Assembly (NCBI GenBank): GCA_945903545.1
Contig: CAMDOO010000002.1
Coordinates: forward strand, 1-64,000
Direction of reading: 5' to 3'
Source: Opitutus sp. GAS368
GTDB lineage: Bacteria; Verrucomicrobiota; Verrucomicrobiia; Opitutales; Opitutaceae
DNA length: 64,000 bases
The notes below the pieces were generated by a model that saw only the letters and a list, made by a program, of their open reading frames with translations, made no database searches and was not told the DNA's origin. Made by a program: the position numbers and the translations under genes. Below are positions 9,536 to 51,738 of this stretch, one piece after another; the stretch's first letter is position 1, and each line of letters begins with the position of its first letter.

Positions 9536-11227
9536 CTAGGCGGCGCCTTTGGTCGGGGAGGAGGCCGGCGGCAGGACGGCGCGATCCACGAACTCGCCAA
9601 AGCGCTCGCCGGGCAGCCGCTCCTGCTTCCAGCGGGCGAGCAGCGGGCGGAGCTCGGCGATGATGTCATCGAACTTCACGCTTTCGCGGTAGATCCGGTT
9701 GACCCGGGTCGAGGCGGCGGCGCCGCCGAGGTGGAGGTTGTACTTTCCCGGGGCGCGGCCCACGAGGCCGATCTCGGCCATGTAGGGACGGGCGCAGCCG
9801 TTGGGGCAGCCGGTCATGCGGACAACGATGTCCTCGTCGCCCAGGCCGAGCTCGGCAAACAACGCCTCAAACTGGTCCAGCAGTTGCGGAAAGACCCGCT
9901 CGCTCTCGGCCAGCGCGAGGCCGCAGGTGGGCATCGAGACGCAGGCCATGGAGTTGAGGCGCACCTGCGCGACCTGGCGGTCCACGGGGACGCCGTGATC
10001 CGCGAGCCGGCGATTGATGGCCTCGCGCTGCTCCTCCGGGATCCCGGCGAGGATCAGGTTCTGGGTCGTGGTGAGGCGGACCTCGGGGCGGAACTCGGCC
10101 ACGATGTCCCGCAGCGCGGTCTTCAGGCGGCGCTCCGGGGTGTCCTTGATGCGGCCAGTCTCGACATACATGCCGAGGAACCAGCGGCCGTCGGACTGGC
10201 GATGCCAGCCGAAGAGGTCGCCCTGCTTGGTGAAGACCGTGGCGCGGGCCGGCTCGAGCTTGAAGCCGGCGCGCTGCTCCACCTCGGCGCGGAACCAATC
10301 CGGGCCCTTGTCGGCGAGCACGTACTTGAGGCGGGCATGCTTGCGATTGGTGCGGTCGCCGTGGTCGCGAAAGGCAATCATCACGGCCTTGGCGGTCGCC
10401 ACGACGCGGGCCGCCGGGATGAAGCCGAGGACATCCGCCGCGCGCGGGAAAGTTGCCTCGTTGCCATGGCTCATGCCGAGTCCGCCGCCGCAGAGGACAT
10501 TGTAGCCGAGCAGCCGGGCGGGGTTGGCGGGATCGGCGACAGCGGAAAAGCCGAGGCAGTTCGCAAAGATGTCGGTGTCGTTCAGCGGCGGGATCGCGAA
10601 GGCGACCTTGAACTTCCGGGGCAGGTAGGACCGGCCGTAAAGCGGGTCCTCGAAGGCGAGCTTCTGCTCCGGCGCGAGCTTGAGGGGGCCGCCATTCACC
10701 CAGATCTCATGATAGGCCTTGGTCTGTGGCAGCAGGGCGTCGGACACCCGGCGGGCGTCGGCCTGGACCAGGTCGGCCAGCGGGCTGGTCGAGGGCGTGG
10801 ACGGCGCGAGGACGTTGCGGTTAACATCGCCGCAGGCCGCGATGGTGCTGCAGAGCGCCTCATTGAGGCCCTTCATGAGCGGTCCGAGGCCGGACTTCAC
10901 CACCCCGTGCCACTGGAAAGTCTGCCGGGACGTGATGCGCAGGGTCTGGTTGGCGTGGAGGTCCGCCAGCCGGTCAAACGCCAGATACTGTTCGGCCGGG
11001 ATGATGCCGCCGGTGATCCGGGCCCGGATCATCATGATGTACTTCTTGCCAGTCTTCCGGAGGTCCCGATCGTCCTGCTGATAAATGCCGTGGAACTTGA
11101 TGAACTTCTCGTCGTCGGCCGAGAAACGGTCAGCCTCCGGCGCGGCCATGGTCTCGCCAATGGTCCCGCCCAAGGTCGGGTCGGCCAGTTTCAGAAGTTC
11201 TTCCTTGGTCAGGACGTCGGTCGGCAT
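9536..11227 (-). CDS. cysI: assimilatory sulfite reductase, haemoprotein subunit
   Basis: Sirohaem/4Fe-4S enzyme reducing sulfite to sulfide with six electrons. Two cysteine motifs bind the coupled cluster and sirohaem: CVSMPTC near residue 427 and TGCPNGC near residue 470. The two ferredoxin-like halves and the SRQTFQWH segment are recognisable, and 563 residues is normal length. No flavoprotein subunit (CysJ) is in the window, so the electron donor may be encoded elsewhere or be ferredoxin. It is first in the operon, with cysH 42 bp downstream, and is divergent from the sirohaem gene cobA. Confidence 0.93.
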   Translation of the reverse strand: MPTDVLTKEELLKLADPTLGGTIGETMAAPEADRFSADDEKFIKFHGIYQQDDRDLRKTGKKYIMMIRARITGGIIPAEQYLAFDRLADLHANQTLRITSRQTFQWHGVVKSGLGPLMKGLNEALCSTIAACGDVNRNVLAPSTPSTSPLADLVQADARRVSDALLPQTKAYHEIWVNGGPLKLAPEQKLAFEDPLYGRSYLPRKFKVAFAIPPLNDTDIFANCLGFSAVADPANPARLLGYNVLCGGGLGMSHGNEATFPRAADVLGFIPAARVVATAKAVMIAFRDHGDRTNRKHARLKYVLADKGPDWFRAEVEQRAGFKLEPARATVFTKQGDLFGWHRQSDGRWFLGMYVETGRIKDTPERRLKTALRDIVAEFRPEVRLTTTQNLILAGIPEEQREAINRRLADHGVPVDRQVAQVRLNSMACVSMPTCGLALAESERVFPQLLDQFEALFAELGLGDEDIVVRMTGCPNGCARPYMAEIGLVGRAPGKYNLHLGGAAASTRVNRIYRESVKFDDIIAELRPLLARWKQERLPGERFGEFVDRAVLPPASSPTKGAA

Positions 11228-49218: not shown

Positions 49219-49472
49219 GGTGCAGGGAAAGGGCCGTGGTAACAGGGATTCGCGGACCGGGAGTGTTATTCCCGGGTCCGGAACGACGCACCCCAGCGGG
49301 CAAAGGTTGCCCGGGCAACGCCGAATTACGGGCGGACGCTGAAGTGAGGGCGAAAGAGGAAAGTGAGTAAAAAGGGGAAAGTGAAGGTGGTCCGGAACCG
49401 AATCGACCCGTCCGCCACCCTCCCTTCCCACCCCCAGTCACTTTCCTCTTTCACTTTCACTTCTCCGGTTCG

Positions 49473-50078
49473 TCAGGGCCGCTCCAGCTCGAAGCGCTCC
49501 GTGGTGCGGGCGTACGAGTTGCCGCCGAGGCGGCCGATCAGATCCAGCTTGGCGGGGTCAGGCCGGCCCGCGGCATCCAGCACGTCGTTGCGCACGTGCG
49601 CGTTCAGAATCCGGCCGAAGACGACATTTGCCGCGAGCGGCCCCTCGCCGATCAGGACGATCGAGTGCACCGTGCATTCAAACGCCACCGGGGCGGCAGC
49701 CACCCGCGGCGGACGCACCCGGGTTGACGGCGCGGCTTCGATGCCGAAGGCCGCGAACTCGCTCTCGCCATGGGGCAGCTCGGCCGAGCTGGCGTTCATC
49801 TTCTCGCCCAAGTCGAACGAAACGAGATTGACCACAAACTCCGGCACCTCGCGAAGGTTGCGGAGCGTGTCCTTCGGCGTCCCATCCCGCTTGTTCACCG
49901 GCACGAACATCAGGGTCGGCGGGTTGGCCGTGATGCCTTGAAAAAACGAAAACGGCGCGAGATTCGTCCGCCCGTCGGCGGAGATCGTGGCCACCCACGC
50001 GATCGGACGCGGCAGGATCGTGCCGATCATCCAGCGGTAGGCCTCGCGCGGCGCCAGGGCGGAAAAGTCCAGTTCCAT
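49473..50078 (-). CDS. flavin reductase family (FMN-binding split barrel) protein
   Basis: 201 residues: YRWMIGTILPRPIAWVATIS, TNLAPFSFFQGITANPPTLMF and VVNLVSFDLGEKMNASSAE fit the flavin-reductase-like FMN-binding split barrel used by NAD(P)H:flavin oxidoreductases and relatives. No partner monooxygenase is adjacent. ATG 50078 starts MELDFSALAPREAY, the family's usual beginning. It is divergent from the DUF6807 gene, with two matching palindromes between. Confidence 0.85.
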   Translation of the reverse strand: MELDFSALAPREAYRWMIGTILPRPIAWVATISADGRTNLAPFSFFQGITANPPTLMFVPVNKRDGTPKDTLRNLREVPEFVVNLVSFDLGEKMNASSAELPHGESEFAAFGIEAAPSTRVRPPRVAAAPVAFECTVHSIVLIGEGPLAANVVFGRILNAHVRNDVLDAAGRPDPAKLDLIGRLGGNSYARTTERFELERP

Positions 50079-50166
50079 GGCCCCGATCACGCACCGAACC
50101 ACTCCGCCCGCCAATCCCTTTCCCACCCGGGACCCGCCACCCCGGTCCGCAAACGCACCCCCGCCC

Positions 50167-50187
50167 ATGTCATCTATTAGTTGACAT
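50167..50187. promoter_or_regulatory. 21-bp palindromic operator candidate, copy 1
   Basis: ATGTCA-n9-TGACAT, with spacer TCTATTAGT. It differs in one base from 50255-50275, and both lie in the same orientation in the divergent control region. Confidence 0.6.
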
Positions 50188-50254
50188 CCCCATGGGCCCG
50201 GAACCGCGTTCCTAGAGTGAAAACGCCCCCCCCCGCGCCTCCAACTCCAGGCCA

Positions 50255-50275
50255 ATGTCATCTATTAGTTTACAT
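50255..50275. promoter_or_regulatory. 21-bp palindromic operator candidate, copy 2
   Basis: ATGTCA-n9-TTACAT with the identical spacer TCTATTAGT; centre to centre 88 bp from copy 1, about 8 turns of helix. AT-rich islands in otherwise very GC-rich sequence. Confidence 0.6.
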
Positions 50276-50358
50276 TCCCCGGGGGGCGGCACGCTGGGGC
50301 GGGCGGGGGAAATCCGATGGTTGCCGGCACGGGAAAGTCCGGCCAATTCAAGGCTGCG

Positions 50359-51630
50359 ATGTTTTCCGCCTTTCGCATCTCCGCCTGCCTGGCGGGCCTG
50401 GCGTCCGTCTTGGGCGCGGCGGCCCCTTTCCAGGTCACGATCGGTCCCGCCCCGGTCGAGCGCGCCGCCCAGGTCGTCTCGCTCACCCTGCCCCGTGAAC
50501 TCGCGGCCGGCGCCACGCTCCGCGACGAGCGCGGCCAAATCGTGCCGCTGCAGGCCGAGTCCGACCTCACCGCCCGCTTCATCGTCGCCCGCCAGGCCGC
50601 GGGCCAGACCCTGAAGTTCACCCTCGAGCCCGGCCGCCAGCCCGACCAGGGCAACGTGCAGGTCGTGGAGGAACCCTCCCCGCCGCGTCCCGGCAACACC
50701 CCCGGCATCGCTTCCGCCACCTCCCCGTCGCGCATCCAGGAAAAGACCGGCCGGCTCCGCGTCTCCGTCGGCGGTCGCCCGATCCTCTACTACCAGATGG
50801 ATCGCGATGCGGTGCCGCGGGAGGACATTGACCCGACCCTGCGCCGGGCGGGCTATCTGCACCCGGTGCTGACGCCAGGAGGCTTTGCCGTCACAGAAGG
50901 TTTCCCGCCAGACAGCGTCCCCACCCAGCCTGTATCCCCCGGCATCGCCGCTTCAGGGCCAATTATCCAGCGTTCGCAGGTCCGCCGTTCAGCGTCCCGT
51001 GACACTGATAACGCTGAAGCCCCGCTGGAATTCGGCGGCGTCGACAACATCTGGAGTGGACCGGTGCATGGCGGCTTCGCCAGTTGGCAGCGTTGGACTG
51101 AAGACATAGGACCTGGCTCCGCCGCACTGGTGAACGAGTCGTGGGAGTTGACTGCTTACGCGGTCCCGAAAACGACCGGCGAAATCAATCTCTTCGATAT
51201 TGTCATCACCCAAACCAACGCAACGAACGTGCCCGTGAAATACGATGAGTGGGGCCTAAACGTGGCTGGCTCCGCCGCGTGGCGCAAAGCCGACTCCCCT
51301 GCTCAAGCGGTCGGCCATATTTTTCCGGCCGAAATTGGGGCCGGGAAAATGCCCCATTGGGTCGGATTGACCGGTAATGGTAAAGACCGTCCCGCCAGCC
51401 TTGCAGTGCTTTTGCCCACTGCCGGTTTCTGGGCTTTCGGTGGCGGTCCGACTGCGATCACCGCCCTTGCCCAAGGTGAGTTGTTTCAACTCGCCCCCGG
51501 TGCCCGCAGCGTGCTGCGCCATCGTTTCGTCGTCTTCGATGGCCCGCCCGAGAACACCCTGCTCGAGGCCCTCTGGAACGGCTACACCGTGCCGGCGGTC
51601 GTGACGATCTCCGCGACCGATGGCCGATGA
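50359..51630 (+). CDS. DUF6807 (PmoA-like) family protein, mosaic
   Basis: 423 residues. Signal peptide (ISACLAGLASVLGAAAP) and a beta-rich N-terminal part, then VGGRPILYYQMDR, YLHPVLTPGGFAVTEGFPPD and later VWSGPVHGGF-like IWSGPVHGGF, LVNESWELTAYA, HWVGLTGNG and GYTVP match DUF6807. The family's usual His-rich HxHHGIW segment after FPPD is absent; the residues from about 195 to 230 (SVPTQPVSPGIAASGP...) do not look like it. From about 50900 to 51480 the codons are clearly less GC-rich than before and after, as if the middle had another origin. Function unknown; related genes often go with sugar dehydrogenases. Confidence 0.72.
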   Translation: MFSAFRISACLAGLASVLGAAAPFQVTIGPAPVERAAQVVSLTLPRELAAGATLRDERGQIVPLQAESDLTARFIVARQAAGQTLKFTLEPGRQPDQGNVQVVEEPSPPRPGNTPGIASATSPSRIQEKTGRLRVSVGGRPILYYQMDRDAVPREDIDPTLRRAGYLHPVLTPGGFAVTEGFPPDSVPTQPVSPGIAASGPIIQRSQVRRSASRDTDNAEAPLEFGGVDNIWSGPVHGGFASWQRWTEDIGPGSAALVNESWELTAYAVPKTTGEINLFDIVITQTNATNVPVKYDEWGLNVAGSAAWRKADSPAQAVGHIFPAEIGAGKMPHWVGLTGNGKDRPASLAVLLPTAGFWAFGGGPTAITALAQGELFQLAPGARSVLRHRFVVFDGPPENTLLEALWNGYTVPAVVTISATDGR

Positions 51631-51677
51631 TCGTTTCCCGGTAGGGCGTGTCACTCCGTGACCGCCGCACCGATCAC

Positions 51678-51738
51678 CGGGTGAGGGCACCCGGACTACA
51701 AATCGAGCTCCGGATGCAGACCGGGTGCCCTCACCCGG
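51678..51738. repeat. CCGGGTGAGGGCACCCGG...inverted intergenic repeat
   Basis: CCGGGTGAGGGCACCCGG at 51678-51694 is the mirror of CCGGGTGCCCTCACCCGG at 51721-51738, and each arm is itself nearly palindromic. A close relative is at 54210-54270 and a single arm (CGGGCGAGGGCACCCGG) at 41938-41954. Confidence 0.7.

Follow-up and report, generated by a model that had tools for sequence, protein, structure and literature searches.

Two 21-bp palindromes in the gap between a flavin reductase-like gene and a DUF6807 gene are probably, with a likelihood of about two in three, one inserted copy of a REP-like interspersed repeat which is accompanied by a dedicated helix-turn-helix (HTH) protein instead of a transposase. 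Each version of the repeat appears, from the sequences compared, to be tied to its own small HTH gene that seems to read it. The pair lies in a stretch of 64,000 nucleotides, here called the window, and the respective features are collected in Table 1. The initial annotation had described two 21-bp palindromes 88 bp apart, the second with one mismatch and both with an identical spacer, between flavin reductase and DUF6807 genes. This description was exact: the palindrome centres are 88 bp apart, the spacer TCTATTAGT is common to both copies, and the Pfam matches of the flanking genes agree with the names given to them. The nine central positions are no free spacer, belonging in most of the listed copies to the palindrome itself, with the form ATGTCATCTA-T-TAGATGACAT. 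For the 64-kb window alone two matches with up to two mismatches are unremarkable (100 shuffles yielded a mean of 0.72, and two matches were reached in 19 of them).

Table 1. Coordinates of the palindrome pair and of the adjoining genes in the window
Feature	Position	Strand	Details
Palindrome copy 1	50167-50187	.	ATGTCATCTATTAGTTGACAT; half-sites ATGTCATCTA and ATGTCAACTA; 0 mismatches to ATGTCA-N9-TGACAT
Palindrome copy 2	50255-50275	.	ATGTCATCTATTAGTTTACAT; half-sites ATGTCATCTA and ATGTAAACTA; 1 mismatch to ATGTCA-N9-TGACAT
Stretch of about 130 bp with both palindromes, missing from the orthologous gap in sister species G001	50157-50285	.	exact ends uncertain
Flavin reductase-like gene, neighbour outside the repeat	49473-50078	-	Pfam PF01613, E 6.4e-21
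DUF6807 gene, neighbour outside the repeat	50317-51630	+	Pfam PF14100, E 2.3e-22; alternative start 50359

Further elements were seen beside these two genes. Just 3' of the DUF6807 gene, at 51636-51700, two stretches of 28-31 bases with about thirty matches in G001 (90-100% identity) look like GTAG-type REPs, and a purine-rich inverted repeat adjoining the flavin reductase gene (49338-49467) has matches on several contigs of G001 and of the second sister species G002.

The repeat nature of the palindrome is apparent from the whole genome, which comprises 3.08 Mb in 122 contigs. The motif ATGTCA-N9-TGACAT, for which the initial annotation had proposed a genome search, has 43 sites if at most one mismatch is allowed; its reversed control has none. 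A refined 21-mer, WTGTCAWCTRWYAGWTGACAW, gave 49 sites with up to three mismatches (reversed control 0), and a looser core, TCANNYANTRNNTGA, gave 67 sites versus 2 and made visible further palindrome families with the same centre, the GTTTCATCTATTAGATGAAAC and TTTTCACGTAATACGTGAAAA types. Thirty-four stretches (537 kb) around palindrome sites were read and 40 adjoining proteins scanned with Pfam. Among them were RNase PH, NfeD, a SpoU methylase, photolyase, an M16 peptidase, glycosyltransferases, the isocitrate/isopropylmalate dehydrogenase family, and others. A carbohydrate or flavin pathway regulon was dropped as a candidate because these 40 proteins have no common theme. As judged by a simple home-made gene caller on loci picked for holding sites, the 33 palindrome clusters are located within genes (12), in divergent gaps (11), in tandem gaps (6), in convergent gaps (2), and at contig ends (2), both convergent-gap clusters sitting at an HTH locus whose gene the simple caller missed. 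The divergent gaps hold 11 of the 19 intergenic clusters and 31% of the intergenic bases (binomial p = 0.013), and the repeat is linked to promoters to some degree. The initial annotation had named as contrary to its own reading a high-copy intergenic repeat without relation to promoters; the high copy number stands, with about 50 interspersed copies, and the lack of relation to promoters does not, given this share of divergent gaps.

In G001 the stretch with the window pair is absent: the BLAST matches to one G001 contig (C298) break off at about 50156 of the window and begin again at about 50286, and on the G001 side the two matches abut; in a second comparison the gaps are placed less neatly. 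The pair is also absent from G002, and ten orthologous loci fetched for it contain no palindrome of its kind. Both sister species retain the flavin reductase-DUF6807 gene pair. This bears on the proposal of the initial annotation that the palindromes are dedicated to the control of a divergent promoter. A private operator pair for these two genes would account for the position in a divergent gap and for the spacing of 88 bp. It is largely refuted, and hardly tenable, in view of some 50 copies beside unrelated genes and within genes, of the two sister species which keep the gene pair without palindromes, and of the region 50060-50340, in which no sigma-70-like promoter was seen.

Copies of the repeat were also gained or lost elsewhere, including within genes. 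In the Met-tRNA formyltransferase a palindrome pair codes for about 25 extra residues which are absent from relatives with solved structures. The sites in HI0933-like, TPR, and 3-beta-HSD-like genes are empty in both sister species; for the HI0933-like flavoprotein, alignment to solved relatives shows a net gap at the palindrome in one of them (4cnj) and not in another (2i0z). Eight sites of the genome could be resolved in G001, namely the window pair and seven of eight others compared; five of these are empty and three carry a palindrome, two of them a palindrome of the G001 type.

The key finding was the linkage of the palindromes to a small HTH gene. The initial annotation had proposed to look for regulator genes near other copies, and one stands between palindromes of the window's family. 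On contig C71, outside the window, three palindromes bracket an open frame of 141-147 amino acids with a helix-turn-helix, located at 10212-10637 of locus L025, two of the three being located upstream (positions 9913 and 9968 of the same locus). A second HTH gene, on contig C1, has a GTTTCA-type palindrome on both sides. Only these two HTH genes were found in the genome, each bracketed by its own, different palindrome family. Palindromes of the TTTTCACGTAATACGTGAAAA type, which dominates in G001, occur in the genome as pairs at a distance of about 54 bp, the spacer being conserved in part (L071:4014, L072:1070-1138, L074:3847-3914, and L050:6895-6963); these pairs look like relics, since the search of the genome yielded no HTH gene of the corresponding type.

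The same linkage is seen in relatives. An HTH gene was detected in 17 of 57 related genomes, with 28 matches in all, and a manual count of the listing gave a nearby palindrome at 25 of these 28 loci, the sequence of the palindrome varying by locus. In GTDB, the best 80 of 106 HTH relatives all carry Verrucomicrobia titles, for the most part those of Opitutaceae or Opitutia. With a palindrome defined by at least 9 of 10 arm pairs, an A+T centre, and a location within 450 bp of the HTH gene, 59 of these best 80 of 106 loci have palindromes, 51 upstream, 52 downstream, and 44 on both sides, and 21 have none under this rule. Near the same best 80 of 106 loci 130 palindromes were counted in 76.5 kb (1.70 per kb) versus 2 in 211 kb (0.0095 per kb) at distances above 1 kb, which is an approximately 180-fold higher density. 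Taking the sum of two patterns, at least 10 palindromes are present in 16 of the 17 relatives with the HTH gene versus 1 of 40 without it, or 1 of 20 when only genomes of the same family are considered (with HTH again 16 of 17), a comparison which is partly circular because the second pattern was drawn up after the HTH loci had been seen. Genome G018 has 16+1 palindromes and no HTH gene was found there; G034 has the gene and no palindromes by the two patterns, its HTH gene being flanked by a palindrome variant of its own. In G005 a single contig of 5,957,605 bases (C1, locus L093) contains an HTH gene and 42 palindromes of one pattern. A phage origin of the HTH gene was rejected, as in viral_contigs a peptide pattern matched 24 stretches, none of which encodes an HTH relative.

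The HTH proteins have a size of about 120-170 amino acids and appear to be Cro-like or lambda-repressor-like. Curated families match them weakly, namely YdaS, HTH_3, HigA, and phage repressors; Pfam applied to 26 members yielded a weak YdaS match in 22 and HTH_3 in 8. An AlphaFold model of moderate confidence (pLDDT 72.7, pTM 0.55) suggests five helices, among them 57-69, 73-83, 87-94, and 103-117, with 87-94 as the predicted recognition helix. Among the structures re-examined by VIA-align against this moderately confident model, Z values reached 7.3, with 6.5 for lambda CI and 5.2 for YdaS, and no match rose clearly above common HTH folds. A Foldseek search with the model gave no match at E <= 0.001, and a PDB profile search with the protein no chain below E 0.3.

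Residues of the predicted recognition helix appear to track bases of the palindrome half-site. At 66 HTH loci, arginine or lysine at residue 87 (the first of the three) goes with G3 of the half-site in 60 of 60 cases and proline or alanine with T3 in 6 of 6. Arginine or lysine at residue 89 (the second) goes with C7 in 52 of 57 cases and other residues in 0 of 9, and glutamine or threonine at residue 91 (the third) with A5 in 9 of 9, versus 4 of 57 for other residues. These three residues open the helix 87-94 of the moderately confident AlphaFold model. The table behind these counts was built from alignment columns and has 66 distinct rows. A palindrome with 9 or more of the 10 arm pairs was required, and rows whose cores were identical were left out; two misread frames (L157 and L176) were removed by hand. 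The C71 protein is absent from it because its palindromes fail the 9-of-10 rule, and its recognition helix PRQQINAF agrees with the residue-base rule at positions 3 and 7. An earlier table, in which the helix was misread in several rows, gave Fisher p values of 2.3e-5, 9e-5, and 5.5e-5 with relatedness ignored, and a Mantel test on 68 rows, L157 and L176 included, gave r = 0.27 with p about 0.001. On a quick tree the residue states changed only 2, 5, and 3 times for the three links, numbers with which no sign test could reach 0.05, and the covariation is therefore suggestive and no proof. If it holds, the sequence of the palindrome would follow the specificity of the resident HTH protein.

The spacing of paired palindromes was examined in 73 pairs, 15 of them from the genome itself and the rest from relatives; every palindrome in this list has 8 or more of the 10 arm pairs. 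The spacings cluster at 42-48, 53-59, 65-67, 79-81, 87-89, and 96-101 bp, and none of the 73 falls at 49-52, 60-64, 68-72, 74-78, or 82-86 bp. The clusters are about 10-11 bp apart. For the full list Rayleigh power reached 14.7 with a period of 10.5 bp and 18.2 with one of 11 bp, and was also raised at 8.5-9 bp (11.4 and 9.9). With the pairs collapsed to 47 values the power at 10.5 and 11 bp was 7.9 and 10.2; for the pairs of the genome alone it was weak (3.4 at 10.5 bp). Six more pairs of the genome outside the list have spacings of 44, 54, 55, 58, 65, and 102 bp. Where the core is asymmetric, 16 pairs are inverted versus 3 direct. The suggestion of the initial annotation that two dimers might act together on helically phased sites is thus a fair reading, the 88 bp of the window pair falling in the 87-89 bp cluster. 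A protein dimer would most likely sit on each 21-bp palindrome, and at helical spacings both dimers of a pair would point to the same side of the DNA and, so placed, may bridge or loop it; at its own bracketed locus the HTH protein would then be expected to regulate its own gene.

A different explanation is that the HTH protein is a host factor, a global regulator or chromosome organiser, and that the palindromes are its maintained, useful docking sites. This overlaps with the REP-like reading. Several observations would suit it: the preference for divergent gaps, the helical phasing of the pairs, half-sites which change symmetrically and in concert with the HTH protein, and palindrome positions which are often the same in the genome and in G001. 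From 21 palindrome clusters of G001, judged for orthology only against the stretches around palindromes of the genome, 8 align on a palindrome there and 2 share an unaligned gap with one; for 1 the genome has an empty site, and 10 are beyond judgement. At the common places the two species mostly have different palindrome families. Of the two HTH loci of G001, the one on contig C89 is orthologous to the HTH gene on C1 and has changed palindromes on both sides. That 10 of the 21 cluster positions are common also counts against a purely selfish, freely moving repeat. The docking-site explanation is nevertheless considered unlikely, since the HTH gene is patchy (17 of 57 relatives), several palindrome families coexist in one genome, copies lie inside genes, one sister species or both lack the palindrome at several sites including that of the window pair, and the HTH locus on G001 contig C342 corresponds in the genome to a place that has only one palindrome and lacks an HTH gene. 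There one long palindrome (L067:4132-4160) stands against a palindrome, an HTH gene, and a palindrome in G001 (L105:1312-1944), which in the sequence comparison reads as the gain or loss of a whole HTH unit.

In the preferred reading of a REP-like repeat with a dedicated HTH protein, elements away from the HTH locus would be gained and lost between species, mainly in intergenic regions and in some cases in frame inside genes. A tentative extension, which we hold possible, is that these are transposase-free palindromic elements in which the recognition helix sets dozens of sites and a genome-wide population follows its change, often at inherited positions, the protein driving spread or upkeep of the copies. 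It might protect or bridge the palindromes, for instance, or template them.

The arms tend to remain self-complementary within each copy beyond the 21 bp, as the first eight outer positions of the 49 sites contain 184 pairs versus 155.2 +/- 7.9 when the arms are dealt anew, a value reached in 0 of 2000 shuffles. Such pairing would be expected of a hairpin acting at the RNA level as a terminator or transcript stabiliser. This explanation is very improbable: the two strands read alike, divergent gaps are favoured, no terminator-like site was found at the window copy, an Rfam search over 8 palindrome loci gave no family except one tRNA, and helical spacing and covariation with the HTH protein would be left unexplained.

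The closest known systems are REPs and REPINs with RAYT transposases (REPtrons). Like the present repeat, these are short palindromes with tens of copies, which often stand as inverted pairs, lie for the most part between genes and also in frame within them, are patchy among relatives, and flank the gene of a dedicated protein. A high-copy, mostly extragenic palindrome, as in the GTAG/CGTC definition of REPs, is found here with 49 copies and 12 of 33 clusters in genes. In contrast to REPtrons the gene between the palindromes codes for an apparently Cro-like HTH protein and no Y1 transposase, and unlike REPs and REPINs the repeat has few convergent gaps and a palindrome sequence that appears to follow the HTH recognition helix. 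According to PMC3733652, REPs lie mainly between unidirectional and convergent genes, unlike the 11 divergent, 6 tandem, and 2 convergent gaps among the 19 intergenic clusters here. The same paper also describes Rickettsia palindromic elements and intragenic REPs of Opitutus terrae, which add about 20-30 residues in frame to housekeeping proteins; the formyltransferase insert and the sites absent from sister genes are similar to these. The main text of PMC3733652 mentions no HTH partner and does not use the terms helix-turn-helix, repressor, transcriptional regulator, or DNA-binding. Overlap of the present repeat with one of the O. terrae REP families is possible.

Movement of classic REPs by a RAYT (Y1) transposase would explain the size, the copy number, the excess of inverted pairs, and the insertions in genes, as in known REPs including, according to PMC3733652, those of O. 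terrae. It is quite improbable as an explanation here, given that no GTAG or CGTC tag is conserved at the palindrome feet (CGTC is seen in the flanks only within the arm variant ACGTCA, which most copies lack) and that the stretches fetched around the three Y1_Tnp loci of the genome lack the TGTCA-type palindrome. No transposase was identified for the copies of the present repeat. Two of these Y1 (RAYT-like) genes, at C18:30093-30341 (L061) and C46:2107-2355 (L062), are flanked by a GTAG-type REP of the form TGTAGGAGC...GCTCCTACA, a repeat system distinct from the present one. The third, at C44:2043-2372 (L060), has GGGGTTGGGCCGTACATTGTCAC-form repeats nearby, and a similar stretch occurs in L034 near 1560.

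XRE/Cro-type repressors such as lambda CI, the C proteins of restriction-modification systems, and YdaS share with the HTH protein paired palindromes of a size suited to dimers, a candidate operator upstream of the own gene (51 of 80 GTDB loci, best 80 of 106), and, as far as the moderately confident model goes, a similar predicted fold, and differ in that the sites are here dozens of interspersed repeats which are also located downstream of the HTH gene and inside unrelated genes. The chromosome-organising proteins Noc, SlmA, and MatP are each DNA-binding proteins with their own set of palindromic sites, numbering in the tens per genome. The present repeat resembles these site systems in this respect and is distinguished by its patchiness, by several families per genome, and by insertions in genes.

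Literature searches found no paper on such repeats in Opitutaceae, and a pairing of palindrome and HTH protein was not found described. If the reading is correct, REP-like repeats would gain a kind which has a DNA-binding reader and no transposase, and the spread of such repeats and their use by the host would become testable. The approximately 66 HTH proteins, each adjoining its presumed target, would in that case form a natural set for studying residue-base recognition from genomes.
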